Made by a program: the position numbers and the translations under genes | Part shown: positions 6,163-35,554 of the stretch, in pieces | Position numbering within the stretch: the stretch's first letter is position 1 | Layout: the number at the start of each line of letters is the position of its first letter | NCBI GenBank assembly: GCA_020348925.1 | Contig: CP070758.1 | Location: 4,096,683 to 4,132,847, forward strand | Origin: Gemmatimonadota bacterium | GTDB lineage: Bacteria > JBHIER01 > G020348925 | Direction: 5' to 3' | DNA length: 36,165 bases | The notes under the pieces: model-generated | The model's database searches: none | What the model saw: the letters and a program-made list of their open reading frames with translations, nothing else | Told to the model about the DNA's origin: nothing

Positions 6163-8358
6163 CTACCGGATGACGGCTATCTTTTTCGTCTCGACAAAAT
6201 CCTCGGTTCTGATCGAATAGAGATAAATCCCTGACGCAACCGTCTTTCCGTGCTCATTCTTTCCTTCCCAGTAGCTTTCGCTCTCCTCGAGAATAACCAC
6301 GTTCTGGTACGGGCCTGCTTTTAATTCGCCCAGGTTCTTTTCCCATACCAAATCCCCGGCTATGCTGCGTATGCTCAAAATGACTTCAGCATCTTTGTAA
6401 AGATTGAAGGGGAAATAGGTTTTTTTGTGCTCGGAAATTTTAAAGGGGCTCGGAAAATTCTGCATGACGGCACTCGGAATGGTACCGGCACCGCTTAAAC
6501 CGATCGTGATCTCCTGTGCAGCCGGATCATCACTCGTGAGTGTGACAGAACCGGTGATGACACCGATTTCATTGGGACGAAACGTCACAACAATTGCAAT
6601 GCTCCCCAAGACATCGAGGGTCTGCGGGAGTGACACGTCCTGAATCGTAAATATGCTTTCAGGCATAGCGGACACAGTATAGAGAGTACGAGCGCCTGTC
6701 CCTCGGTTGGAGACGATCATCTCCCAGTCAGCCGTATGGCCCAGGAGCACACTGCCGAAATCGTGCGGGGCGTCGGATACCTCGAGACTTGCACCCAAGT
6801 CCGGATCATATTCCGCATCATAAGTGTACGTATAATTTTGTCCTGATGTCGATACCACACTGGGAATAAGTGCGATCTCAAGATAATCCTTCCAGTTTCT
6901 GGTGGCATGGACACCTCTGTTGAGGTCGTCAAGTGTCATCTCCCTGGCAAAGTGGGTTTCTGAATTCAGATATTCAATAACCATCACCTTCCAATTCGGA
7001 TTGGAGATCCCGGTAAATGAGATCCGCAAGCCGCCGATGGTTTTTCGAGGGGCAAAGCCTATATAGTTGGCGCCCAAGTGGTTCACCAGTCCGGAGCCGG
7101 ACGCAGGATAGGACAGGTGTCTCTCCTCAAATTTCAGCAGAGGATAATCAGCACCTTCTTCATAATATAAGTTCGGATTTGAACGGCTTCCCGTGAAATA
7201 GTTCCATACGGAAAACCCTTGAAATGCCTCCGCCAAGCTGCTACCTCTCTCGGTTAAGGCCGTTTGCATGGCATTCAGGGCATTTGTCGTCACACACCCC
7301 TCCCAGATCTCTCTTATAATATCGACGTGATATTTCTTTGAAAGGAAGATGGCCCAAATGCAACTTGCATATTCGTGTCGTCCATTGAACTCATCGAGGG
7401 ACGCTTCCGGATCGTCAAAGAACCATCGCAGGTAGGCGAAATAATCGTTGACGTCGTCATACATCATATCTTCCATCCATACCGATGAAATCTCCATCCA
7501 GTATCGGTCGGATTCCTCAACGGCATCGTAGCCAAAATGGATGGCATGGAAAAATTCGTGGGCCGCGGTGACCTTCAACCCGTCGAGGGAGAGCTTTCCC
7601 TGATTATAACTCGGATACCAATCATAGTCATTGTCAACGACAATGTAACTCGTGGCACTCCGACCGGTGGTCACATATTCACCCTGCGTGTATCCGAAAA
7701 CCGTCTGCCAGCCAAGATCTTCAATGTAAACGTCGTATCGCGAATCGTCCCCGAAGTCCTCTCCCTGGGGATACCAGTCTCCGTCTTGAGGTGGCGCCTG
7801 GTAGCCCAAGGCATCGACCTCTCGTGTCCAGACATAATCAAAAATAGCGCCACAGTCGTTCACATAATCCGGAACAGTATCCCTCGGATTGACATCAATC
7901 GAATCCGGGGCATCATCGGTCGTTCGAACGTACCAAATTCTGAAGTGACCGCTCGGCGTGTCGTAGAATTCAGGATCTGTTGTATACGCGTGCCCCCAAG
8001 AAGGGTCCTGACCAGCTTCTGTGGGCCGCAGCAAATAGGGCAGAAGTTGAGCCTGGGTCTCCGGACTCAGTACGGACCACTGACTTCCTATTTCCATGAA
8101 AAGCGATGTGGCGCACTTTTCCGGTCCAAGACCTTCAGCCTTAAATCGAGCATCAACATTCTGAGGTCGAAAGATTGAAAAGACTTTCTGAACCAGCGCG
8201 GTTTCATAGTCAATCGTTCCCTCATCGTACGCTTCATCGATGACCGAAAACCGCGTCTCTCCCCGCAGCTCCGCAGAAACCCACCGGATATTGAAAAAAG
8301 AAATGATGAAAATGAACACGACACAAATCTGATGAGATGTAATATGCGATTTTTGCAC
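6163..8358 (-). CDS. Secreted zinc metalloprotease (MXAN_6640-like) with C-terminal sorting-type domain
   Basis: A 731-residue exported protein. A hydrophobic signal peptide occupies about residues 1-29. A metalloprotease-like domain contains AAHEFFHAIHFGY, an HExxH zinc motif (His267, Glu268, His271), followed by acidic WMEI and WMED segments that could supply the third ligand. After the protease region comes an abnormal-spindle/choice-of-anchor-D type Ig domain (about 530-620: DFGSVLLGHTADWEMIVSNRGTG). The C-terminal module (QNFPSPF through ASGIYLYSI and KKIAVIR) resembles FlgD/Por sorting domains. I chose GTG at 8358 because AAGGAGGT stands 4-5 bases before it; the frame extends to 8388 without a better site. 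It is probably a surface or secreted peptidase. Substrate is unknown. Confidence 0.8.
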   Translation of the reverse strand: MQKSHITSHQICVVFIFIISFFNIRWVSAELRGETRFSVIDEAYDEGTIDYETALVQKVFSIFRPQNVDARFKAEGLGPEKCATSLFMEIGSQWSVLSPETQAQLLPYLLRPTEAGQDPSWGHAYTTDPEFYDTPSGHFRIWYVRTTDDAPDSIDVNPRDTVPDYVNDCGAIFDYVWTREVDALGYQAPPQDGDWYPQGEDFGDDSRYDVYIEDLGWQTVFGYTQGEYVTTGRSATSYIVVDNDYDWYPSYNQGKLSLDGLKVTAAHEFFHAIHFGYDAVEESDRYWMEISSVWMEDMMYDDVNDYFAYLRWFFDDPEASLDEFNGRHEYASCIWAIFLSKKYHVDIIREIWEGCVTTNALNAMQTALTERGSSLAEAFQGFSVWNYFTGSRSNPNLYYEEGADYPLLKFEERHLSYPASGSGLVNHLGANYIGFAPRKTIGGLRISFTGISNPNWKVMVIEYLNSETHFAREMTLDDLNRGVHATRNWKDYLEIALIPSVVSTSGQNYTYTYDAEYDPDLGASLEVSDAPHDFGSVLLGHTADWEMIVSNRGTGARTLYTVSAMPESIFTIQDVSLPQTLDVLGSIAIVVTFRPNEIGVITGSVTLTSDDPAAQEITIGLSGAGTIPSAVMQNFPSPFKISEHKKTYFPFNLYKDAEVILSIRSIAGDLVWEKNLGELKAGPYQNVVILEESESYWEGKNEHGKTVASGIYLYSIRTEDFVETKKIAVIR

Positions 8359-8396
8359 ATGGACCTCCTTCGTCGACTCAAGCTGCAATATAATAC

Positions 8397-8425
8397 AGTA
8401 TACATGATTCTTTCGTACAAATCAA
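8397..8425 (-). promoter_or_regulatory. Sigma-70-type promoter of the metalloprotease gene
   Basis: On the minus strand, TTGATT (8425-8420), a 17-base spacer and TATACT (8402-8397). The leader is about 30 bases and contains the strong AAGGAGGT ribosome-binding site before GTG at 8358. Confidence 0.6.
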
Positions 8426-8686
8426 GCAGTTTTCGAATGCTGTTCTACGCCGTCCTCCGTTTGGCGCCCTTGATTCCCTGTGCATTCTTCTTAACGGAGT
8501 GATAAAGGCCCAAATAGTTCCCACAAAAATACGAATTGCAGCATTCGCCCAGAATGCTTCCGAGGAAAACCCAATCTGTACGGTCGTACGAAAGTCAGCA
8601 GAAGAGCTCTGCATGAGAGGGATATGGCTTCATACCGATCGGGAACATGTTGATGTGTGAAGACAGGCAGAATGGAACATTTTGTA
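8426..8686. other. Intergenic, nothing recognised
   Basis: Lies between the PHP gene's 3' end and the metalloprotease promoter. The one longer minus-strand frame (8614-8378, 78 codons) runs over the promoter and has no recognisable protein character. I see no clear terminator for the PHP gene. Confidence 0.4.
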
Positions 8687-9511
8687 TCACATGTTATTCC
8701 GAAGATTTTCCAGCTCCTTCAGCCACGACATCGGGACCTTGAATCGACCGATAGCCGCCATATTTGTGTGGGGCCCATGAAAATCAGATCCCCCTGTCAC
8801 AATCAGTCCGAATTTGCGAGCAACATCGGTATAATGTTTCGTGACAGATGGATTATGATCCGGATGAATAACCTCCAAACCTTGTAGGCCTTGAGCTATA
8901 AAACCGGGTATGAGCTCATCTTTTTTCACTGTTCCGGGATGAGCGTAGACGGATATGCCCCCGGCTGACCGGACCAGGTCGATGGCCTCAGCCAGGGACA
9001 TCTTAAATTTAGGCACATATGCAGGATTATTATAGCCGAGGAACCGAACAAAAGCTTCATTGAATGACGTCACGAACTGTTCTTGCAGTAACGCCTCGGC
9101 AATATGGGGTCTTCCAATAGATCCTTCTCCAGCGATCTTTCGAACGTTTTCAAAGTCAATGGGGATACCCAGCTCGTTCAGTTTTTGAACGATCTTCTCC
9201 GCTCTCTCTTCACGAACTTTTCTGAAAAACTCCAATCTCTTTGCAAATTGACTGTCTGTGTAATCTATGTAATACCCCAGAAGGTGCATATCTATTCCAT
9301 TCATCGTGACACTCAACTCAACACCTGGGACAACCTGGCAGTCGAGATTTTTTGCCGAATGGATGGCTGGAACGATACCTTCGATCGCATCATGATCAGT
9401 GATAGCAATGGCCTTCAGATCGGTTTGGAGGGCAAGCTCTACGATCTTCTCAGGTGATACTGTACCATCAGATGCTGTCGTGTGCACATGAAGATCCGCA
9501 AATCCTTCCAT
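8687..9511 (-). CDS. PHP-domain phosphoesterase (RNase AM / YciV-like)
   Basis: A 274-residue metal-dependent phosphoesterase. It shows the PHP metal motifs in order: DLHVHTTASDG near the N-terminus, ITDHD at about 41, VPGVE at about 65, VYAHPG in the middle and GGSDFHG near the C-terminus. The closest known type is the YciV/RNase AM (3',5'-nucleoside bisphosphate phosphatase) group, which has this length and the inserted helical region. The frame runs 17 residues further upstream, but ATG at 9511 has GAGGAGA five bases before it and starts the family's usual DLHVHTT block. It is divergent from the FN3 lipoprotein operon. Confidence 0.88.
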   Translation of the reverse strand: MEGFADLHVHTTASDGTVSPEKIVELALQTDLKAIAITDHDAIEGIVPAIHSAKNLDCQVVPGVELSVTMNGIDMHLLGYYIDYTDSQFAKRLEFFRKVREERAEKIVQKLNELGIPIDFENVRKIAGEGSIGRPHIAEALLQEQFVTSFNEAFVRFLGYNNPAYVPKFKMSLAEAIDLVRSAGGISVYAHPGTVKKDELIPGFIAQGLQGLEVIHPDHNPSVTKHYTDVARKFGLIVTGGSDFHGPHTNMAAIGRFKVPMSWLKELENLRNNM

Positions 9512-14852: not shown

Positions 14853-17800
14853 ATGGAAATATTCACTACGATATTCAACACGCTTACAAAAATCGAAAAA
14901 AATAAAAATCAGAATTGGATTGTGCTCGTCTTCACAGCCACACCTCTGATCCTGTTGAGTATTGATGTTGCTTATCAACACTCTTTTCTGTCAATTGTAA
15001 CGACCATACTTTTACTCATTCTCTACATCTTTCTTCTCTATATGTATTGGAGAAAGAAACGAGTGACTGGCTTTCGTCCTCATCGGTATTTTCTTCCGGT
15101 CATCTTACTTTTACTGGCCGTTCCCTTAGGATCGAAAATACATTTCGAAATCAATTCGTACAACGCAAAAAGAAATTGGGAAAGCCTCTCTCGATCGTCA
15201 CTGCGTAAGGACGCTGAGACAATCCGGAACAGTTTTCAGGATGTGCTTCGTTCAGCGGAACAACTCGCCAGAAATGTTGCGGACCATCCTACATTGAAAA
15301 AAGCACTCGGAGATCCCAATATCGAGAACCGAGCCACCATTTTTCAAATTCTGTCTGATATTGATCCTGAATTTCACGGCGATTACGGTCTTGAAGTATT
15401 TGACAAAAATAGGCAGAGCGTTGCCTGGAGAGGTGTCACGTTTCCACCACAAGAGCTCTTAAAACAGCATATCTCCATTGTCACCGGTCAAATATACACA
15501 ACGCTGTGCGTCGGAGAACATGTGCTCAACACACCGGACGGACAAGTGCTGGGTTCATTCTTTGTCTACAGACCATTACGACTGAACATTCCAATTCAGA
15601 TAAAATCGCTTCGACAATGGAGCTTTGAAAAAGATGTATCCGCGAATATCCGTGCACCATTTCGTCTCGATTTTATTACCACCAGCAGGGATAACATTGA
15701 TTCAGGCGTGTGGCTCCCGTCTGACAATGAAGAGTTTTCCGTAACACTCTCGGATCTGGAGAACAATACCCTCGGGGTGGCTCGTTTATCCAAACCCTCA
15801 TATGAAAGCTACATGCGTGTGCAGCGTACAAAATCCATCAGGATTTCAATCCTTTTTCTCGGACTCATCTTTGTGTACGTTCTCATAAGACTCCTCAGAA
15901 TTCTTTACTTCTCTGTTCTTCAGGAGCGAAACCGACACGAAAAAATCTCTCGAAGGTACTTTGTGACTTTTTGCACAATGACCATTGTGTTATGGACCGT
16001 CCGATATGGACTCCTGTTTATCGGATTTCCTGCGAAGGTCCTTACTCTTTCAATCTTCGACCCGATCCACTACGCGTCTCCCTTCTTCCTTGGCATTTCT
16101 CGCTCCGCCGGTGAGCTTCTGATAACTCTCATTGTTCTCATAGTGAATATCTATCTGGGGTGGAGACTTTTCCTCTTTTCAAAAAAAGGGACCACCGCAC
16201 GAATTCCGTCCAGAATTTTCGCTCTCATTGCTGTACTGCCAATTGTGGCGCTCATCCATTTTCTCTTCGAGACGTACATCTCAGGCATACGGAGTCTTGC
16301 ACACGACTCAACCCTGAGTTTCTTCAACTATCTTGAGCTGTTCTCTTCTCTCCCCCTGCTCGTTACGATGACAAACCTTTTCCTGTTGAGCCTGGCAACT
16401 CTTTCCTTCAGTCTGCTTGGCCTCTGTCTGATCGAACACCTTCTCCGGAATGCAATAGGATCTCAGATATCACGGTGGACCTGGATTTTCTTTGCCTATA
16501 GTCTCGCAGGGGCGCTCTGGCTACTTGCAACAAACCAGCCGACATACCTCATTGAGAGAATGTGTTTTATTCTCGCTCTCCTGATGCTTGCTTCTGTGAC
16601 AGACCGTTTCCTTGTCGCAGCGACTGGAAACAGGTGGGTTTTTTTATTCATACTTACAGGCATTTGTGCCATTCTCTCTTTTCCAATTTTTCGTAAGGAA
16701 ATAATGAAAGAGGAGGATCTTCTTATCCGTCAGAGAACCGTGGAAGCTCTCCAACCAACGGAAAGTTGGATCCGTTTTGTTTTGGAGAACAGTCTGGATT
16801 ACTTTGGCCAGAGCATGAATATTCAAAAATCCCTCGCCGATAAGGAACATATAAATCTTGCGAGTCTGGCGTTCGTAGAGTGGGCGAGAAGTCCTCTCAG
16901 CCATCTGAATTTTGGAAGCTCGATCACTATTTTGGATGAAGCGGGTTCGAATGTCAGTCAATTCGATATTTCTACGCCTGTTGGACTGGAACAAACGGCT
17001 GCATCCGTTCTGCAGGAAATTGAGGACGTGAGCGGAAAATTCATCACGCTGAGCAGAGCTCATATCGAAGGGCAAGAGATAGACCTCTATTCAGGTGCAA
17101 CTCCCGTTTTTGACGAGGGGAAATTGTACGGGGCAGTCATTGTAAACATTCCTGTCGCAAAATCTCCCTGGGGTGCATTGACCAGACTGAGTGGCGTATA
17201 CCCCACACCCCTTCGCCCCTTTGAACCCGGAGGACAGCTCACTCACAAATATGGACCGACCGAATTGGTCGTCGCAATGTACGAGAGAGAAACACTCGTC
17301 GAATCAACCGCTCCGGCTTTTATCAGAGGGCGACGTCCATCCGAAGAAATCCTCAACAAGATGTTCGACGAAAAAATAGAATATTTACGCATTTGTGAAA
17401 AAATCGGTGACAGACAATTCGTAAATTTCTATTTTCCTCAAAAAGGCGAAAGCGTGGTCGGAATGGTCTCAGTCGGTTACGGGAAAGCAGAAATATGGAC
17501 GATCATCCACGACTGTTTGCGCTTGCTCTTTACCTATCTCCTCTTGATCATATCATTGTACGGCTTGTATCGGATCAGCGTTGTCGTTCTTCGAGGCAAC
17601 ATCCGCGGTATCATATCTATTAAACGGTTTCAAGACAAACTGCTCTTGTCCTTTGCGATGCTCATCATATTTCCCATGCTTGTTATGGCTTTTCTGGGCC
17701 GTAATGTTGTTCTCTCTCAGCAGGAGGACTGGATCCGATCTCGTATCGAAGAGGATCTCACGCGTGTTCGTGCGCTTCTTGACGAAGAGACGATCACTGC

Positions 17801-19361
17801 TGCTCGAGAAATTGCATCCAACCCTGAGATCATCGATTTTCTGAACCAACCCGAGGAACACCAACTCACCGCACTTCGTCCAAGGAAGGAAACGATTACG
17901 CTTTGTAACGCTGAGGGTGATGAGCTTTGGAGTAATGCAGCGGGACGAGCAAGCGATGAAATAAGAGATCGGGTGAGATTCACGTATACGCCACGCGTTT
18001 TTTATTCTCATGCACCCTTCCTTGCTATCGGGTCCGTTGTTCCTATCATCGATGCCGAAAAGGAGAGCGAGTATATTGGATCCGTTGAATATCTTCGACC
18101 TATCGACGATGCACTGTGCAAAAGATTGAGCCAAAGAGTGGGACGTGACATTAATGTATATCACAGGGGTATCGAAATCGCCTCGACACGCCCGGAGTTA
18201 TTCCAATCCGAGTTCCTCATGAAAAAACTTCTTGGCGACGCTTTTCTGAACATTGAACTCCTCGATAGAAAATTTTTCTACGCGAAAAGAATAATGGGAA
18301 CGCATCCGTACATCGAAGGCTATCAGCCCCTGAGAGACATTCTGGGCAGAACCGCCGGTGTTCTTTCCATTCCTACCATCTATCAGGAACAAACCGTACA
18401 ACAGGAGACGGCGAAAACAATTTCTGTCATACTGGTTATCTATGGGCTCGTTCTCTGTGCGACCCTCCTCGTCGGACTCATTCTATCACGACGAATCTCC
18501 TCTCCCGTACGAGAGCTGACAAAGGGCACACGGCAGATCGCATCCGGTGATCTCAGTTTTCGAATCGAGATGAAGGCCAAGGACGAACTCGGCGATCTCG
18601 TTGCCTCGTTCAACAAAATGACTGAAGATTTAAGATCGAGTCAGCAGAGGCTCGTGCAGGCGGAAAAAGACGCTGCCTGGCGAGAGATGGCCCGTCAGGT
18701 TGCGCACGAAGTCAAAAACCCACTCACCCCAATGAAACTCTCGATCCAGCATCTCGTACAGGCTTACAAAGATAAGGCAGAACATTTTGAAAAGATTCTC
18801 TCAGAGACAACCACAATGGTTTCGGATCAGATTGATGTTCTCAGAAACATTGCCTCGGAGTTTTCCTTGTTCGCCAGATTACCGAAAAGAAAAGTCCAGG
18901 CGTGTCAAGTTCAAGATATTATGCAGGAAAGTCTGCGCTTGTTCAGTGATAGTTTTACAGGAATCACGCTCGTTACTGAGTACGAAAAGTCTCTCTCTCC
19001 CATCCTGGCCGATCCGGAGGAACTGCAGCGAGTCTTTGTCAATCTGATCCAAAACGCCATCCAAGCAATGCAAGGTGGAGGTACTCTGAACATTGAGATA
19101 TCAACGCAACGTATGCGAGATAAAAATGGAGAACAGCAATACATCATCATCCGCATTATTGATACCGGCTGCGGAATCCCGGACGACCAGAAGGAAAAAC
19201 TCTTCGAACCGAGCTTCTCGACCAAAACCGATGGAACGGGTCTCGGATTGGCCATATGCAAAAGGGTCATTGATGATCTCGGAGGAAACATTGACATTGA
19301 CAGCACCGTCAACGTGGGGACAAAAGTCACCTTGATCCTGCCGGTTCATCGGAACGTCTAA
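14853..19361 (+). CDS. Giant NtrY-like membrane histidine kinase
   Basis: A 1502-residue sensor kinase, about twice the normal size. Three N-terminal membrane segments (about 22-40, 45-67, 79-95) lead into an extracytoplasmic domain (about 96-325). A block of about eight membrane helices (330-612), a second extracytoplasmic domain (615-885), two helices (890-950), a third Cache-like domain (955-1188) and a last helix (1189-1212) follow. The cytoplasmic part has a HAMP domain (1213-1262), an H-box REMARQVAHEVKNPLTP with His1285, N-box NLIQNAIQAM (1397-1406), G1 DTGCGIP (1437-1443) and G2 GTGLGLAI (1461-1468), all intact. The H-box is NtrY type; NtrY partners are often NtrX-like sigma-54 activators. 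No response regulator is in the window. The ribosome-binding site is weak. Confidence 0.9.
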   Translation: MEIFTTIFNTLTKIEKNKNQNWIVLVFTATPLILLSIDVAYQHSFLSIVTTILLLILYIFLLYMYWRKKRVTGFRPHRYFLPVILLLLAVPLGSKIHFEINSYNAKRNWESLSRSSLRKDAETIRNSFQDVLRSAEQLARNVADHPTLKKALGDPNIENRATIFQILSDIDPEFHGDYGLEVFDKNRQSVAWRGVTFPPQELLKQHISIVTGQIYTTLCVGEHVLNTPDGQVLGSFFVYRPLRLNIPIQIKSLRQWSFEKDVSANIRAPFRLDFITTSRDNIDSGVWLPSDNEEFSVTLSDLENNTLGVARLSKPSYESYMRVQRTKSIRISILFLGLIFVYVLIRLLRILYFSVLQERNRHEKISRRYFVTFCTMTIVLWTVRYGLLFIGFPAKVLTLSIFDPIHYASPFFLGISRSAGELLITLIVLIVNIYLGWRLFLFSKKGTTARIPSRIFALIAVLPIVALIHFLFETYISGIRSLAHDSTLSFFNYLELFSSLPLLVTMTNLFLLSLATLSFSLLGLCLIEHLLRNAIGSQISRWTWIFFAYSLAGALWLLATNQPTYLIERMCFILALLMLASVTDRFLVAATGNRWVFLFILTGICAILSFPIFRKEIMKEEDLLIRQRTVEALQPTESWIRFVLENSLDYFGQSMNIQKSLADKEHINLASLAFVEWARSPLSHLNFGSSITILDEAGSNVSQFDISTPVGLEQTAASVLQEIEDVSGKFITLSRAHIEGQEIDLYSGATPVFDEGKLYGAVIVNIPVAKSPWGALTRLSGVYPTPLRPFEPGGQLTHKYGPTELVVAMYERETLVESTAPAFIRGRRPSEEILNKMFDEKIEYLRICEKIGDRQFVNFYFPQKGESVVGMVSVGYGKAEIWTIIHDCLRLLFTYLLLIISLYGLYRISVVVLRGNIRGIISIKRFQDKLLLSFAMLIIFPMLVMAFLGRNVVLSQQEDWIRSRIEEDLTRVRALLDEETITAAREIASNPEIIDFLNQPEEHQLTALRPRKETITLCNAEGDELWSNAAGRASDEIRDRVRFTYTPRVFYSHAPFLAIGSVVPIIDAEKESEYIGSVEYLRPIDDALCKRLSQRVGRDINVYHRGIEIASTRPELFQSEFLMKKLLGDAFLNIELLDRKFFYAKRIMGTHPYIEGYQPLRDILGRTAGVLSIPTIYQEQTVQQETAKTISVILVIYGLVLCATLLVGLILSRRISSPVRELTKGTRQIASGDLSFRIEMKAKDELGDLVASFNKMTEDLRSSQQRLVQAEKDAAWREMARQVAHEVKNPLTPMKLSIQHLVQAYKDKAEHFEKILSETTTMVSDQIDVLRNIASEFSLFARLPKRKVQACQVQDIMQESLRLFSDSFTGITLVTEYEKSLSPILADPEELQRVFVNLIQNAIQAMQGGGTLNIEISTQRMRDKNGEQQYIIIRIIDTGCGIPDDQKEKLFEPSFSTKTDGTGLGLAICKRVIDDLGGNIDIDSTVNVGTKVTLILPVHRNV

Positions 19362-28131: not shown

Positions 28132-31077
28132 TTAGGGAGAAACCTTCATAATGAATTGAATCTTTTCTCTTTCATTGGCTTTGATAGTAATATATTTCGT
28201 TTCCGTCGTGTATCCGTCCTTAATAATCTGTACCTGATGCTGGCCCACGAATAAATCGCGAATAACCTTAGGTGGTGTACCATGCGTTTTTCCGTCAATC
28301 CATATCTCACCAAAAACTTGGTTCCTGTACTCATCGATACAGGTAATATTGAGCGATCCTTTTGCCGTGAAGTCATGCGACACAGATGCCACCTCATTGT
28401 CACCAACGTGCACCCTCCTCTCATGCGGAAAATAGTTCGGATGTGTCAGTCTGAGCTTGTGACTGCCAGCAGTGATCTTCTCGAAAGTTCCCTTTTCCTT
28501 CGTTGTTCCCAAGCTTTTCCCATCGACAAAAACTTCCGCCCAGGGCGTCGCATGAATTTTAAGAGATCCAAAAACGACGGCATCCTCAAGTGATGATAAT
28601 ATGAACTGTTCGGGATGTTCTTGTCCAGGCCGAAACGTGAGCAGTGTTTCGAGAGGGACAAAACCTTCCTTCATGATATTGATAAGATGTTCCCCCGGTT
28701 CTAACGAAAGTGTCAACGGTGTTTGATCTTCGTATTCTAAACTGTCAATCCAAAGGCTGGCACTTTCAGGGACAGTGGAGACGATAAATGTTGACGGGAG
28801 AGGCGACAGACGAGAACGCGAGGTGTCGACAGCACCTTGAGAAATATTGACGCGACCCTCCCAGGGCGTGTACCCAGGAAGATGTAAGGTCAGAGTATGA
28901 GCACCGATTTTCAGTTGTTCAATTTGCACAGGTGTTGTGCCACGAGAAACATCATCGAGTACAACCTGCGCACCGGAGGGATCACTCTCCACTGAAAGTC
29001 CTCCAAATGATTTTGAAAGGGGTAAAATCAGATCAATCTTATCGCTCTCCTTCAAGGAAAACCGATGGACTTCCTCCGCATAATCGGACATTGAAATGTG
29101 AAACGTGTGCTCCCCCAACACGATTTGTTCCTTCGTCATCTTCAAGGGAGTGGTTCCAAGAAATACGCCGGCTTCGGTAACGGAGGCACCGGGGGGTTCT
29201 GTTTTCAGGACCAAGGCGAACGGCGTCATGAGTTCAAAGTAATAGATCGCTGCAGCACCAAGCACAAGAACAAGCATAATGGCCATTAAAACAACGATGC
29301 GTCTTGCTCTCTTACGACGATGGGGTTTTTTCTTGGATGGTGTACCTCTATCACCGGAAAGTTTCTCCTTGGCCAAACGGAGATCCTCGATCATCTCCTC
29401 TCCGGTTTGATAGCGTTTCTCTTTTTCTTTTTGGAGGGCTTTGAGCACGATCCGATCAAGCTCTTCCGGAATACTGGGATTTTTTTGGGAGGGTGCCATA
29501 GGAATTTCATTGACGTGTCGATACATGGTTCCCACGGCCGTGCTCCCCTCGAAAGGCACTTTGCCCACCAGCATCTCATAGAGAACAATTCCCAGAGAGT
29601 AAAGGTCGGCTCTTCCATCCGTCTCTTTTTCCCCTCGTGCTTGCTCGGGGGACATATACTGAGGCGTGCCGATACTCGTTCCGGTCGTCGTTAAACCACC
29701 GCTGTCAGCAGCTCTCGCAATACCGAAATCGAACACTTTCGTCACTTTCAGCTTACTGATCATAATATTGTGCGGTTTTATGTCGCGGTGGATAACACCG
29801 TGCTTGTGGGCAAAATCGAGAGCTTTGCACGTATCCCAAGCAATATCGAGGACTTGTTGAATCGGCAGCGCCCCTTTCTCCTCAATAAGATGTTTAAGGT
29901 TCTTTCCCTCAATGTATTCCATGATAAAATAGTGAATGCCGCTCTGTTGGCCAATCTCGTAAATCTGAATAATGTTGGCATGATTCAATCCCGCGGCAGC
30001 CCTCGCCTCACGTCGAAAACGACCGAGAAACTCTTGATCCCGAGTATACTGTTTTGGGAGTACTTTCATCGCAACGATCCGATTCAGTGACGTCTGAAGG
30101 GCCTTGTAGACGACACCCATACCACCCCGTCCAATTTCTTCGATGATCTGATAGTTCCCCACCGTTTGCCCAATGAGCTCCTCCGGGTCAAGAATTCCAG
30201 TTCCCATTTCTCCCCCACCGGGGGTGATATCATGACCCGGCGTCGTCGGGGTCGGTGTTCCCTCCAGGAGTCTTTTCGCCGCCTTCAAGTCTCCCAGCAT
30301 CTCCTCCATGGTCTGGTATCGATATGCCTTATCCTTCTCCAAAGATTTTTGAAGGATCGTTGCCATAGCCGACGCCAGTACCTGAGGAATGACCTCAACG
30401 GGTTCCGGATCTTCATTCAGCAGTGAATAGAGAATGGCCGCTTCATGCTCCCCTCGAAAAGGGCGATGGCCCGCTATCATCTCATAAAGAACGACCCCCA
30501 AGGAAAACACATCGGTTCGGTAATCAACCTCCAACCCCTGAGCCTGCTCAGGAGACATATACGAAATGGTACCCACAGTGCTTCCTGTTCTGGTAAGACG
30601 GCTCACCCCTTTCAACTTGGCCAGTCCAAAGTCCATAATTTTTACGAGACCGCGAGGAGTCACCATGATGTTATCGGACTTGATATCCCGATGAACGATC
30701 CCCTTTTTATGGGCTTCGGAGAGACCGTCGGCAGTTTGAATAGCGATATCCAACACTCTCTCAATAGGAAGTGAATCTGAACCGAGAACATCACTCAGGG
30801 TCTGACCCTCGACATATTCCATACAGATAAACTCCAGACCTCCCTCCTCGAACATATAATAAATCGTGGCGATATTGGGATGATTAAGGGCTGAGCTGGC
30901 TTGGGCTTCTTGCGCAAGGCGTTTCTTTGCATCTTCATCGGAAGCAAGTTGGGGTGGAAGACATTTCAGGGCAACGGGTCTGTTCAGTTTCGTATCCTCT
31001 GCTTTAAACACCGCTCCCATGCCTCCCTCACCCAGCTTCTCGACTATTTTGGAATGCGATACAACGTTCCCAATCAT
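28132..31077 (-). CDS. Transmembrane protein with two tandem Ser/Thr kinase domains and PEGA repeats
   Basis: A 981-residue protein. Kinase domain 1 (about 8-272) has GEGGMG (16-21), Lys38 (VALK), HRD at 129-131, Asn136, DFG at 149-151 and a YMSPEQ activation-loop end. Kinase domain 2 (about 309-575) has GRGGMG (316-321), Lys338 (VAMK), HRD at 430-432, Asn437 and DFG at 450-452. Both sets of catalytic residues are complete. A basic linker and one membrane helix (593-614) lead to an extracytoplasmic region of about five PEGA-like repeats of 65-75 residues (TEPPGASV, ESDPSGAQVVLDD, VPESASLWIDS, HATPWAEVFVDG, EIWIDGKTHG). PEGA domains are thought to bind envelope surfaces. It starts 33 bases after the NHL/TPR gene and is probably co-transcribed. 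Confidence 0.9.
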   Translation of the reverse strand: MIGNVVSHSKIVEKLGEGGMGAVFKAEDTKLNRPVALKCLPPQLASDEDAKKRLAQEAQASSALNHPNIATIYYMFEEGGLEFICMEYVEGQTLSDVLGSDSLPIERVLDIAIQTADGLSEAHKKGIVHRDIKSDNIMVTPRGLVKIMDFGLAKLKGVSRLTRTGSTVGTISYMSPEQAQGLEVDYRTDVFSLGVVLYEMIAGHRPFRGEHEAAILYSLLNEDPEPVEVIPQVLASAMATILQKSLEKDKAYRYQTMEEMLGDLKAAKRLLEGTPTPTTPGHDITPGGGEMGTGILDPEELIGQTVGNYQIIEEIGRGGMGVVYKALQTSLNRIVAMKVLPKQYTRDQEFLGRFRREARAAAGLNHANIIQIYEIGQQSGIHYFIMEYIEGKNLKHLIEEKGALPIQQVLDIAWDTCKALDFAHKHGVIHRDIKPHNIMISKLKVTKVFDFGIARAADSGGLTTTGTSIGTPQYMSPEQARGEKETDGRADLYSLGIVLYEMLVGKVPFEGSTAVGTMYRHVNEIPMAPSQKNPSIPEELDRIVLKALQKEKEKRYQTGEEMIEDLRLAKEKLSGDRGTPSKKKPHRRKRARRIVVLMAIMLVLVLGAAAIYYFELMTPFALVLKTEPPGASVTEAGVFLGTTPLKMTKEQIVLGEHTFHISMSDYAEEVHRFSLKESDKIDLILPLSKSFGGLSVESDPSGAQVVLDDVSRGTTPVQIEQLKIGAHTLTLHLPGYTPWEGRVNISQGAVDTSRSRLSPLPSTFIVSTVPESASLWIDSLEYEDQTPLTLSLEPGEHLINIMKEGFVPLETLLTFRPGQEHPEQFILSSLEDAVVFGSLKIHATPWAEVFVDGKSLGTTKEKGTFEKITAGSHKLRLTHPNYFPHERRVHVGDNEVASVSHDFTAKGSLNITCIDEYRNQVFGEIWIDGKTHGTPPKVIRDLFVGQHQVQIIKDGYTTETKYITIKANEREKIQFIMKVSP

Positions 31078-31110
31078 GAAATCAATCTCCAGATAGAAAC
31101 GACTTCAATC

Positions 31111-33999
31111 TTAATCTGCCTTTTGCATCTCGCTTTTCAAAGACTCGAATTTAAGTCGAAATTCCGGTGAAAAACTCTCGTCGAGGGCATTCTCGGGATG
31201 CAACTGAATTGATTTCTTGAGAGCTTCCTCGACTTTCGACGAATGTTCAGAAAATGGGAAATAGGAGTACGCCAACCATAAATATGCCTCGGAGAGATCC
31301 TCGTCGTTCATTTCCTGAGTCGTGATGGCCTCCAAAAAGGCCGTTTGAGCGCGTTCAAACTCAGCAGAAAGGTGTAACCGCCTTCCTTCTTCGAGCAGAT
31401 ATCGCGCCTGAGGCGTCGTCTTCTTGATCCGTTGAAGTTGAATCACACCCACATCGAGTTGAATGCCCTCTGAGACATTGAGATTTTCCACGACATGCTC
31501 GACGTACTCCTGAGCACGTATGGCGAGTCTATAAAGACCCGCATACAACCCTGGAGTCTGAAACATACCATTTTCAGCACGGGCAGTCACAGTGGTAATT
31601 TCCTTGTCTTGACTGAAGAGTGTCACGAGAGCACCGACATGCGGCGGGCTGACAAAACCGACAATACTGCCCGGTTTTTTCACATAGGTTGTATCATAGG
31701 CGACCCTTCCGCTTTCCACGACCATGGTGTGAGGTATCACCGGACTGACATACCCTTTCGCCTCCACTTCAATCGCGTACTCACCAGGCCTGACGTCAAG
31801 AAACACAAAACAACCATCGTCTGGGTTCACTGTCGCTTCGGCTATATATTGCAGATCTTTTTTAAGACGAACCCTCGCCTCGGATACTTTCGGAACGACC
31901 ACCCCGGAGATCGAACCGTTCTCCTCCAGGAGTATCATGTCAGTTCGAACGACCCGTCCAGGAACAATTTGCACCGCCACCTGATTCGTTTGAACGTATC
32001 CCGGAGCCTTAATCTGGATCGTGTACTCATTTGGGGGAATACCACTCACAAAGAAGGAGCCATCCCAAAAGAGTGAATCGATTGTGACAGGTTGTCCGTG
32101 GAGATAGAGTGCAACGTGGCCACTCTCCGGAACCGGCTCCACACAACCTTCGACAGCACCGTCCTTCAAATGGGTCAGACGGAATATTGATATCCGGTTA
32201 TGTTCGGCGTCGGAGACATATATCTTTCCCCCAGGACCCAACTCGATGTGTGTCGGTTTGCGAAACTGACCAATGAGATTCCCTGAAGAAGCGAAACGCA
32301 CCATCGGACGCCGTTCGCGGTCATACACATGAATTCCGGTTCGGGTATCTAACACGTAAATATTTCCACTCGTATCGACATCAACGCTGACCGGATCTTG
32401 AAACGGTCCTCGCTCCTCATCGCCAATGAACGACATTCTGCTGCCGTTCGGTCCCAAGATGCTTACGGTGCGGCTCCCCTCTTCCACCACGTACACTTTC
32501 CCATCGACTGCCACAACCCCTTGAACCGGCTTTCGAAGAGGTGCACCTGTATCACCGGCAATCATTCTCAGAAAAGCACCCTCAGCATCCAGTACCTGAA
32601 TACGATTATTATTTTTATCCGCGACATAGAAATTGCCCTTGTCGTCAAGCGCCACAGCATGAGGTCCGTTAAATTCCAATGAACCTCCGCCCTTTTTCCC
32701 CAACTGACCTTGAAACACTCCGGAATCGCTCCATTGTTGAAGGCGATTGTTGCCCGTATCTGCGACATGGAGGATCTTGTTTTGACTCCAGACGATGCCC
32801 ATCGGTTTTTTGAGACGGCCAGGATCCGCACCTTCGCCCCCAAAATTCATCAAAAAACTCCCCGCCCATGTATAGACATAAATCGAATTGAACTCCCCGT
32901 CTGCACAGTATACGTTCCCCTCGTAATCCAGCGTAAACGAATTGAGACCTCGCGAGTTGGGTGCGCTGGAATGTTCGAAATCACCGATCCAGACAACACC
33001 TTTGGGAAGCATCTGCTCTGAGGGTACGACCAGTCTGTTTTTCCTTTCATCGAGGCCCACCAATGAAAATTGTTGAATATTGTAGTTTTTATTGTCCGCC
33101 ACATACAACGTGCCCTTCCCATCGACAAGAACAGCATTTGGACTTCTGAACTCGCCGCGCCCCTGCCCTTTTACCCCTAACCGAGCATAGTACGAGGGGG
33201 GCTTGCCTGGAGTGACGGCCGAGCCGATGATAAAAACGTTGCACCGCTCGATGTCTGTGACGTACAGAGTACCATCACCTTCCACAAAGATTCTTCCAGG
33301 AGCGGAAAGTGTAAATCTGGGCTCACTTCCCGGCATCACAGTGTTGAGCAACCGAAAATTATAATCAAAGACATGAATTCCAGCACCCTCGGCATCCAAA
33401 ACATAGAGATTTCCCAAACGATCGACGCCGATATCCACCGGCTTCCCGAGGTCTGCCAACCGTCCCATGTAAATCCCCTGATTGTTGTAACAAAATACGT
33501 ACCCCTTCCGGTCAGCCACGAACAGGCGTCCAAATTTATCACACGCAATACCAGTAGGTTCGGAGAGTTTGGTCTCTGAATCATCCGCGGGTCCAAAGCA
33601 CCTGAGAAAACGGCCCTTCTCGTCGAAAACGAGAATTTGCCCGTTTGCACCGTCTCCGATGAAAAAATTCCCACGCGCGTCTGTTGCAAAACAGTCAGCC
33701 TTGCCCAGGGTGTATTCAGATTCTCGTTGGGAAAGAGATATTATGACTTTTGCGGCAAGCGAGTCCAGAAGAGCGATTGAAGCATCATCGTTCAGCAGGT
33801 ACACGCTCCCGTCTGCGCCGACATCCATGTCCACCACCCGTGCGGCACGTTGGCTGACAAAGTCGACGCGGACGTGTTGGGCATGACTCGGAACTCCCGT
33901 GAAGAGAAGAAAAGCGGAACACACACCGGCGAATATTCTCACCACTTCCGTTACGGTTCCGTGAAACGCCTGCGATGACATGGAGGACCGTCGAAACAT
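31111..33999 (-). CDS. Secreted NHL beta-propeller protein with CarboxypepD_reg-like and TPR-like domains
   Basis: A 962-residue exported protein with an N-terminal signal (about 20-41, ending SHAQ). About ten NHL repeats cover residues 45-600; typical units are LYVADNKNYNIQQF, LHVADTGNNRLQQW, FYVADKNNNRIQVL and IYVSDAEHNRISIF. Three carboxypeptidase-regulatory-like beta domains follow (starting VEGCVEP, ISGVVVP and IVGFVSP, each containing PGEY- or PNEY-like turns). The last 100 residues are TPR-like helices (ARYLLEEGRRLHLSAEFERA) ending in the FSPEFRLKFESLK motif seen in TPR/PEGA surface proteins. NHL propellers bind proteins or glycans. It is expected in the periplasm or on the surface, upstream of and probably co-transcribed with the double kinase. 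Confidence 0.85.
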   Translation of the reverse strand: MFRRSSMSSQAFHGTVTEVVRIFAGVCSAFLLFTGVPSHAQHVRVDFVSQRAARVVDMDVGADGSVYLLNDDASIALLDSLAAKVIISLSQRESEYTLGKADCFATDARGNFFIGDGANGQILVFDEKGRFLRCFGPADDSETKLSEPTGIACDKFGRLFVADRKGYVFCYNNQGIYMGRLADLGKPVDIGVDRLGNLYVLDAEGAGIHVFDYNFRLLNTVMPGSEPRFTLSAPGRIFVEGDGTLYVTDIERCNVFIIGSAVTPGKPPSYYARLGVKGQGRGEFRSPNAVLVDGKGTLYVADNKNYNIQQFSLVGLDERKNRLVVPSEQMLPKGVVWIGDFEHSSAPNSRGLNSFTLDYEGNVYCADGEFNSIYVYTWAGSFLMNFGGEGADPGRLKKPMGIVWSQNKILHVADTGNNRLQQWSDSGVFQGQLGKKGGGSLEFNGPHAVALDDKGNFYVADKNNNRIQVLDAEGAFLRMIAGDTGAPLRKPVQGVVAVDGKVYVVEEGSRTVSILGPNGSRMSFIGDEERGPFQDPVSVDVDTSGNIYVLDTRTGIHVYDRERRPMVRFASSGNLIGQFRKPTHIELGPGGKIYVSDAEHNRISIFRLTHLKDGAVEGCVEPVPESGHVALYLHGQPVTIDSLFWDGSFFVSGIPPNEYTIQIKAPGYVQTNQVAVQIVPGRVVRTDMILLEENGSISGVVVPKVSEARVRLKKDLQYIAEATVNPDDGCFVFLDVRPGEYAIEVEAKGYVSPVIPHTMVVESGRVAYDTTYVKKPGSIVGFVSPPHVGALVTLFSQDKEITTVTARAENGMFQTPGLYAGLYRLAIRAQEYVEHVVENLNVSEGIQLDVGVIQLQRIKKTTPQARYLLEEGRRLHLSAEFERAQTAFLEAITTQEMNDEDLSEAYLWLAYSYFPFSEHSSKVEEALKKSIQLHPENALDESFSPEFRLKFESLKSEMQKAD

Positions 34000-34071
34000 C
34001 CCAGCAATTCACCTTCCTAAAAAAACCGCCATGAACCCACATGGGCTCTCGGACATCTTATAAGATTATAA

Positions 34072-34100
34072 ATTATAAGCTATTGAAAAGAAAAAAGCAA
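34072..34100 (-). promoter_or_regulatory. Sigma-70-type promoter of the NHL/double-kinase operon
   Basis: On the minus strand, TTGCTT (34100-34095), a 17-base spacer and a perfect TATAAT (34077-34072). Transcription would start about 65 bases before ATG at 33999. The downstream DNA has short AT-rich palindromes (CTTATAAG at about 34057-34064). Confidence 0.65.
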
Positions 34101-34163
34101 GTTTTTTTAACAATCGCACTTTTTCCGGTCATTCCGGGACCTTCCTTTTTTTTCGAATTTCTC

Positions 34164-34192
34164 TTGACTTCACCTTCATTTAGGGATATTAT
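34164..34192 (+). promoter_or_regulatory. Sigma-70-type promoter of the GAF-SpoIIE phosphatase gene
   Basis: TTGACT (34164-34169), a 17-base spacer and TATTAT (34187-34192), giving a leader of about 70 bases to ATG at 34268. It is divergent from the NHL/kinase promoter with the two -35 boxes 63 bases apart. Confidence 0.65.
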
Positions 34193-34267
34193 TGGGTATT
34201 ACTTATTCTTGCCTCGGGTACGGAACAGGCATCCTGACTGCAACTCATTCACCGGACGAACGCCACT

Positions 34268-35554
34268 ATGACGGAAAAATCATTAGAGTCCCTCCAGGAA
34301 GAAAACAGACGTCTCCACAGGGCTGTTGAGGAACTGTCCATCCTCAATGACCTCGCCCGAGTCATTAGCTCCACTTTGAGCGTCAATCAGATTATGGAAT
34401 TGATTGTCCAGAAATCGGTAAAGACCATCGGCGTGGAACAAGGGTCGATAACCCTCCTCTCCACCGAGGAAGCAGCTCCCATGAAGACGCTGGTTCGGGG
34501 TGCGGACTCAAGTTACGGAAAAATGCCTTACCACATAGGGGTCAACCTCACAGGCTGGATGATCAAGCATCAAAAACCACTCATCACGAATGACCTGCAA
34601 ACCGACCCTCGTTTCAGAAGCCTCAAGGATGTGGAAATCAACATTAAATCTATCTTGAGCGTTCCTCTGAAAGTGAAAGATCGTCTCATCGGATCCGTCA
34701 ATCTCTTCAACAAACTGAAGGGATCGTTCACCGATGCTGACCAGCGGCTCCTTTCGATCATAGGGACTCAATCGGCTCAAGTGATCGAAAATGCTCGCCT
34801 CTATGAGGAGGAGCGTGAGAAGGAGCGACTCATGAGGGATCTCATTACGGCGCGAGAGATCCAGATGAGTCTCCTGCCCGACGACAATCCGCAGCTACCG
34901 GGTGTGGATATAGCCGGGCGCAGCATCCCCGCGTTTGAAGTCGGTGGTGATTATTTTGATTTTGTCCCCTTGGAGGACAACCGGCTCGCCATTACGCTCG
35001 GGGATGTCTCAGGCAAAGGCATACCTGCCGCGCTCCTTATGTCAAACCTTCAGGCGGCTCTTCGAAGTCAGGCCTCCTCCTCCCCTCTCCCCAAACCGTG
35101 TATCACTCAGGTCAACAGACTGCTCCATTCATGTACAAGCTCCGAGAAATTCGTGACACTCTTCTACGGCATCTTTGATGCTCAAAAGAGATCCCTCCAT
35201 TATACAAATGCCGGTCACAATCCTCCGTTGGTCATAGATCCTCACGGAGAGTATTCAACCTTAGATGTCGGAGGCATAGTAATCGGTGCCGTTCCTCAGT
35301 TTCCATATGAGGAAGGGATCATACAATTGAATCCGGGACATATTTTGGTCATGTACTCCGATGGTATAACCGAAACCGAAAACGAAAAGGAGGAACAATT
35401 CGGCGAAGAGAGATTGATCCGCATAATCCGTGAGCATGCTGATTTGAAGGCTACAGAAATCTCAGAAAGAATTATCGACCAAGTGAATTCCTTTTCACAA
35501 GAGAGCCCCCAACAAGACGACATGACCCTCATCGTTATGAAGGTGTTGGAGTAG
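34268..35554 (+). CDS. GAF domain and SpoIIE/RsbU-type PP2C phosphatase
   Basis: A 428-residue cytoplasmic protein. A short N-terminal coiled coil leads into a GAF domain (about 22-178; SVNQIMELIVQKSVKTIGVEQG, KSILSVPLKVKDRLIGSVNLFNK). A helical linker (180-205) precedes a PP2C-type SpoIIE domain (about 210-427). It contains the metal-binding GGDYFDF (227-233), GDVSGKGIPAALLMS (245-259), TNAGHNPP, YSDGITE and a final QQDDMTLIV. Such proteins dephosphorylate Ser/Thr-phosphorylated partners (often anti-sigma antagonists) under control of the GAF domain. No anti-sigma pair is nearby. Divergence from a two-domain Ser/Thr kinase suggests a shared substrate, which is inference. No strong ribosome-binding site precedes the ATG. 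Confidence 0.93.
   Translation: MTEKSLESLQEENRRLHRAVEELSILNDLARVISSTLSVNQIMELIVQKSVKTIGVEQGSITLLSTEEAAPMKTLVRGADSSYGKMPYHIGVNLTGWMIKHQKPLITNDLQTDPRFRSLKDVEINIKSILSVPLKVKDRLIGSVNLFNKLKGSFTDADQRLLSIIGTQSAQVIENARLYEEEREKERLMRDLITAREIQMSLLPDDNPQLPGVDIAGRSIPAFEVGGDYFDFVPLEDNRLAITLGDVSGKGIPAALLMSNLQAALRSQASSSPLPKPCITQVNRLLHSCTSSEKFVTLFYGIFDAQKRSLHYTNAGHNPPLVIDPHGEYSTLDVGGIVIGAVPQFPYEEGIIQLNPGHILVMYSDGITETENEKEEQFGEERLIRIIREHADLKATEISERIIDQVNSFSQESPQQDDMTLIVMKVLE

Follow-up and report, generated by a model that had tools for sequence, protein, structure and literature searches.

Sequence analysis of a Gemmatimonadota locus encoding a tandem Hanks-type kinase, an NHL-propeller protein and a divergent GAF-SpoIIE phosphatase

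Gene organization

The window analysed here is the whole stretch of 36,165 nucleotides from a Gemmatimonadota genome (G000), which consists of a single contig of 5.04 Mb. The locus under study comprises three genes (Table 1). The gene for an NHL-propeller protein lies 33 bp upstream of that for a tandem kinase, both on the - strand, and this short gap and shared strand make it likely that the two form an operon. The gene for a GAF-SpoIIE phosphatase is divergent from them across a 268-bp spacer, as an earlier note on this DNA had claimed, and the kinase and phosphatase families which that note had read from motifs were borne out by Pfam matches to Pkinase, GAF and SpoIIE, together with the catalytic and metal-binding motifs. 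A scan of the window against Rfam gave no match.

G000 contains ~26 Pkinase matches and 11 SpoIIE matches. The genomes that gave relatives of the window proteins are akin to G000 at the domain level only; since G000 has no close kin in the genome collection, conservation can be assessed at a distance only.

Table 1. Features of the locus and of two protein families recurring near phosphatase relatives (coordinates without a locus prefix are those of the window)
Feature	Coordinates	Strand	Remarks
Tandem kinase gene	28132..31077	-	981 aa; Hanks-type Ser/Thr kinase, one TM helix, PEGA repeats
Kinase domain K1	30313..31053	-	residues ~9-255
Kinase domain K2	29404..30153	-	residues 309-558
Transmembrane helix	29242..29298	-	residues 594-612, hydropathy
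Predicted extracytoplasmic region, five PEGA domains	28132..29160	-	Pfam
NHL-propeller / CarboxypepD_reg protein gene	31111..33999	-	predicted secreted, 962 aa
Signal-peptide-like N-terminus of NHL protein	33877..33999	-	hydropathy, hydrophobic
Divergent spacer	34000..34267		268 bp
GAF-SpoIIE (PPM-type) Ser/Thr phosphatase gene	34268..35554	+	428 aa, predicted cytoplasmic
GAF domain	34376..34789	+	residues 37-174, Pfam
SpoIIE phosphatase domain	34976..35545	+	residues 237-426, Pfam
~252-aa ABM family	L150:11372-12136, L151:7296-8054, L153:6236-6994, L154:9134-9892, L159:2081-2839, L163:11451-12188		
~112-aa family	L150:12145-12486, L151:8072-8410, L156:5524-5934		

The tandem kinase

Pfam returned two Pkinase stretches (E=3.5e-111) and five PEGA domains for the kinase. 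We found that K1 and K2 each keep GxGxxG, the lysine of VAxK (VALK, VAMK), HRDxKxxN (as HRDIKxxN), DFG and SPEQ, and that both activation loops are Thr-rich. Having a Pkinase match with the Lys, HRD, DFG and activation loop, both domains are of the Hanks type and look catalytically intact, in agreement with the earlier claim of two complete catalytic domains. The single TM helix is placed after K2; K1 and K2 precede it and are therefore predicted to be cytoplasmic, and the PEGA repeats, which follow it, to be outside. Extracellular PASTA repeats were not detected by Pfam, PEGA domains being in their place. The best match of NF033483 to the protein covers residues 307-571, a kinase domain.

Among the ~26 Pkinase matches in G000, only the window kinase has two kinase domains in one gene, and nine other kinases covered by the Pfam scan each consist of one kinase domain followed by TPR repeats. 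The PEGA region was unmatched in other kinases within the own-genome stretches compared, and a search of 386 genomes at E<=1e-85 gave no relative matching the double kinase over its full length. K1 groups with the STPK (Ser/Thr kinase) expansion of G000, the lineage that accounts for the majority of STPKs in G000 and for the majority of those next to phosphatase genes in relatives. K2 represents another STPK lineage, grouping with kinases of G254, G024, G052 and others (branch 100/99). Internal duplication was considered as the source of the two domains, and a forced sister pairing of K1 and K2 was rejected (delta lnL 78, AU p=3e-11); a fusion between two already existing kinase lineages is thus the best reading of the gene. 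One tandem kinase built from two kinase lineages would be a further unusual feature of the locus.

The NHL-propeller protein and the divergent spacer

In the protein encoded upstream of the kinase, Pfam detected NHL (E=5.6e-35) and three CarboxypepD_reg stretches. The earlier description as a secreted NHL/TPR protein stood as regards the propeller and the signal-like N-terminus, but no TPR was found at Pfam E<=0.01, the C-terminus merely looking helical. The best structure-database matches were TRIM-type NHL propellers, and the PknD sensor (1rwi) was matched as well (E=4.8e-10). An AlphaFold model made without an alignment was unusable (pLDDT 38). The protein found no relatives when used as query against the genome contigs, no full-length relative of it was found, and in none of the relatives examined does such a protein lie beside the phosphatase or the kinase. 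Since neither the NHL protein nor the double kinase has full-length relatives, the links that involve them rest on one genome.

A parallel exists elsewhere in G000, where the gene for a PD40-propeller protein immediately precedes that for another STPK (L149:9172-11598 and 6417-9167, - strand). An open frame of G019 with kinase and NHL matches was considered as a fusion precedent and set aside, its propeller match being weak (29% over part). Involvement of the NHL protein, based on this single operon and on analogy with Mycobacterium tuberculosis PknD, is plausible, as is a propeller-kinase partnership, because of that analogy and the PD40-STPK gene pair in the same genome. We give about an even chance to the NHL protein being a sensor partner of the kinase. 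Nothing in the relatives connects it with this phosphatase, and the propeller protein would seem to be a local extra.

The spacer had been described as carrying a well-formed promoter each way. On the + strand, TTGACT-17-TATTAT scores 10/12, which 63 of 500 shuffled versions of the spacer equalled or beat, and the best site on the - strand (9/12, with the -35 at 3/6) is ordinary. These sigma-70-like matches are at chance level, and paired promoters were rejected as evidence of co-regulation. The 268-bp spacer contains no inverted repeats beyond A/T-rich runs.

The phosphatase and its gene neighbourhood in relatives

Pfam matched GAF and SpoIIE (E=7e-53) in the phosphatase, with one weak unrelated match, and detected no PP2C-type domain (PF00481/PF13672). 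The protein retains all metal-binding motifs (GGDYF, DVSGKG, SDGITE and DDMT) and, having PF07228 with the metal-binding Asp motifs, is a SpoIIE-type PPM phosphatase; its relatives in the PDB include SpoIIE and Rv1364c.

The best relatives of the phosphatase in G001, G009, G055 and G045 were all located near STPKs. When an alignment of these relatives was scanned against genome contigs, at least 80 named loci were obtained. Among the matches listed, relatives of 43-48% identity came from MAGs of Bacteroidetes, Ignavibacteria, Melioribacteraceae, Balneolaceae, KSB1, Calditrichia, Zixibacteria, Aminicenantes, Eisenbacteria and one Bryobacterales, the taxon labels being used as written. An STPK was present within 10 kb in L150, L151, L152, L154, L155, L156, L159, L160, L161 and L163, as well as in L164 (a 39% relative), and orthologues with none at that distance were those of L157, L170, L274, L275 and L277. 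More distant relatives, among the matches listed, had an STPK in L169 and L190 only, and a good number carried HATPase and/or STAS genes in its place. The window's phosphatase and kinase genes diverge, with the NHL gene between them, whereas many relatives have the two in the same direction, and the adjoining STPKs do not all belong to one orthologous clade. No HATPase_c_2 gene was found beside STPK-linked orthologues. In a Rhodothermia MAG, an FHA-GAF-SpoIIE fusion (L164:9602-11278) adjoins an STPK, FHA being a phosphothreonine-binding module.

The earlier note had proposed that the three genes act together and that the same trio should be sought in related genomes. The trio is not conserved, as no relative examined has the NHL protein beside the phosphatase or the kinase, but adjacency of phosphatase and kinase recurs in MAGs of several labelled phyla; the phosphatase is thus regularly apart from an NHL protein but not from a kinase.

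Three further observations concern these neighbourhoods. A family of ~252 aa, for which ABM-domain matches were obtained (two stretches in both of the members scanned), is repeatedly encoded beside the phosphatase, in many cases with the STPK on its other side. Another conserved family, of ~112 aa, recurs between phosphatase and STPK; it has the pattern GWFD....SP..T.I.GCTWGGS..EFGNRL and no Pfam match, and its modest model (pLDDT 73) gave no significant match in the PDB. Convergent to the closest phosphatase relative among the matches listed (53%) is a gene for a 1492-aa STPK/NB-ARC/TPR protein (L272:12547-17025).

Linkage of the phosphatase clade to Ser/Thr kinases

In a first tree, among the matches listed, an STPK lay within 10 kb in 14 of 20 clade members and in 2 of 63 members outside (Fisher p=1.5e-9), the 20 being the other named or fetched rows in the window's set with the own-genome paralogue left out. 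With short flanks set aside, the fractions among the matches listed were 14/16 and 2/51. Calculated from per-genome STPK counts, again among the matches listed, 11 of 16 were seen within 10 kb against 1.1 expected (P=1.5e-10), and 9 against 0.36 within ~2 kb. The clade boundaries in these comparisons were set after the adjacency pattern had been noticed, G001, G009 and G045 are the genomes in which it was first seen, and the rows are not independent. L150 shares 81% identity with L151, and L132 and L154 represent a single contig, counted once as L154. STPK abundance was considered as the cause and rejected: most of the counted genomes of unlinked paralogues are equally or more STPK-rich, so abundance does not explain the adjacency.

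Of six more relatives (45-53% identity) in a follow-up set, three were beside STPKs (L272, L273 and L276), a linkage weaker than in the first set, still above expectation. A careful tree including these rows placed the window phosphatase in a clade of 26 rows (98/90), of which 18 are STPK-linked, the window included. Among the neighbours of this clade are L033_own and L275b (joined 100/100), both in phosphatase-HATPase-STAS loci; the branch uniting them with the window clade has lower support (80/98). Judging from these genomes, the clade of the window phosphatase is recurrently encoded beside predicted Hanks kinases in distantly related organisms.

STAS proteins as candidate substrates

The classical substrates of SpoIIE-type phosphatases are STAS proteins that HATPase kinases have phosphorylated, a point that was overlooked in the earlier note and that changes the likely substrate. 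Neither a STAS gene nor an HATPase anti-sigma kinase gene adjoins the window phosphatase, and most STPK-linked relatives have no STAS gene nearby. In L130, L160 and L275, the gene immediately after that for the phosphatase encodes a STAS protein, and alignment revealed an NST-G-(L/M)-G motif in all three products, the Ser of which we take to be the position phosphorylated in SpoIIAA/RsbV. L275 contains, in addition to the orthologue and its STAS gene, a second phosphatase-HATPase-STAS set. G000 itself encodes 7 STAS proteins and several HATPase_c_2 genes, with complete modules at 1.77 Mb and 4.94 Mb. The closest own-genome STAS protein (G000:C1:4429396-4429695; NSSGLG) is 43% identical to that of L130; its gene adjoins a second STAS gene, with no kinase gene among the ORFs listed around it. 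The STAS neighbours and the FHA fusion support, short of proof, a relay made up of Hanks kinase, phosphatase and STAS protein.

Comparison with known systems

The RsbU/RsbP/SpoIIE-RsbW-RsbV systems likewise combine a sensor domain with a SpoIIE phosphatase, and STAS genes adjoin some orthologues of the window phosphatase, but their kinases are of the HATPase type, whereas the window clade is mostly found with Hanks kinases and the window locus has no STAS or HATPase anti-sigma gene. In PrkC/PrpC and PknB/PstP, kinase and PPM phosphatase are likewise encoded together; the phosphatases are PP2C enzymes that lack GAF, and the kinases have PASTA repeats and one kinase domain. Reversal of Hanks-kinase phosphorylation by a SpoIIE-type phosphatase has been reported for Stk1 and RsbU acting on MgrA in S. 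aureus, where the sensor domains differ and where, to our knowledge, the two genes share no neighbourhood.

PknD resembles the window proteins in being a membrane Hanks kinase with an NHL propeller, although other NHL propellers score higher than 1rwi against the window propeller, and in having a STAS-type target as proposed here. It differs in that the propeller is part of the kinase chain and there is one kinase domain, as opposed to a separate secreted propeller and two catalytic domains with PEGA. The literature surveyed yielded no phosphatase of the SpoIIE type as a partner of PknD. The PknD propeller reportedly senses osmolarity, and its substrate Rv0516c is an anti-anti-sigma factor phosphorylated at Thr2, not at the STAS serine; the opposition of RsbU to Stk1 on MgrA is reported in the same source (PMC4601284). 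Both cases are precedents for the function proposed below. An STPK with NHL repeats has been noted in D. radiodurans (PMC1262709). In a signalling survey, Hanks kinases with PP2C and HATPase kinases with SpoIIE and STAS are presented as two distinct systems (PMC9239204), and a survey of the myxobacterial phosphatome found few genetic linkages of SpoIIE with ELKs and called the opposition of SpoIIE to Hanks kinases unclear (PMC2887360). The locus is a variation on known kinds rather than a new kind, and, the literature surveyed being partial, the clade may have been described earlier. Coupling would combine in it two systems that are usually regarded as distinct, and a clade with recurrent Hanks-kinase linkage near partner-switching branches offers defined protein sets for the question of SpoIIE against Hanks kinases.

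Possible function of the locus

The locus may be a reversible Ser/Thr phosphorylation system facing the cell envelope. The PEGA region would control the kinase, and the NHL protein may assist it by binding a ligand in the periplasm; K1 and K2 would phosphorylate target proteins, and perhaps each other too; and the GAF-regulated phosphatase would strip those phosphates. The likeliest targets would be STAS anti-sigma-factor antagonists, as the phosphatase has a STAS gene next to it in three relatives; in G000 they would be encoded elsewhere, the STAS gene at 4429396-4429695 being the best candidate, and the outcome would be a partner-switch-like relay with a Hanks kinase in place of the usual HATPase (RsbW-type) kinase. 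Coupling of kinase and phosphatase at the locus is, from the recurrent neighbourhood, quite probable; coupling in which a STAS protein is one plausible target, and not a proven one, is evenly balanced; a STAS protein as the target is a tentative proposal, somewhat short of even. A wider reading has a modest chance of being right in full: a widespread and undescribed hybrid relay where Hanks kinases stand upstream of STAS proteins in the role of RsbW-type kinases and a dedicated GAF-SpoIIE clade counteracts them, here with a two-lineage fusion kinase under a separately secreted NHL propeller.

The phosphatase may instead dephosphorylate the kinase itself and many kinase substrates with no STAS step, as PrpC does for PrkC and PstP for PknB. 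This would fit the common sharing of an operon by Hanks kinase and PPM phosphatase genes (PMC6213207), the scarcity of STAS genes near linked relatives, the Thr-rich activation loops, and the FHA fusion of L164, which is compatible with phosphothreonine substrates; yet the enzyme is a SpoIIE type with GAF, which the literature keeps apart, with the RsbU type, from the STK-cognate PP2C phosphatases (PMC6213207; PMC9239204), and related phosphatase branches lie in STAS/HATPase operons. We consider it rather unlikely.

Classical Rsb-type switching in trans, in which the phosphatase has as its sole substrates STAS proteins that HATPase kinases encoded elsewhere have phosphorylated and its proximity to the kinase is incidental, agrees with the classical targets of such enzymes, with the STAS genes, HATPase_c_2 genes and complete modules of G000, and with the second set in L275, but is made improbable by a clade-specific STPK adjacency far beyond expectation and by the STPK-linked orthologues having no adjoining HATPase_c_2 gene. 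Two separate units, an envelope-sensing NHL-kinase operon and an unconnected phosphatase system that merely share an intergenic region, would account for the divergent orientation, the chance-level promoter matches and the orthologues elsewhere without NHL protein or double kinase, but are very doubtful given that the phosphatase clade adjoins STPKs in most relatives examined, so that the proximity in the window was probably retained and is not accidental.

Other genes near the locus

Elsewhere in the window, positions 14853-19361 encode a multi-TM histidine kinase of 1502 aa, the first ~1000 residues of which have no Pfam match. Downstream of the phosphatase, the end of a frame at L134:18492-18842 resembles by eye a type IX secretion C-terminal sorting domain (LLENYPNPFNPETNIEFGLPED); the frame starts past the masked stretch of the window. 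Just past the end of the window, an HdrA-like frame (L134:19596-19900) contains an in-frame TGA where Cys would fit (FPTNDCSI-TGA-ILAPKM), suggesting that it may encode a selenoprotein.
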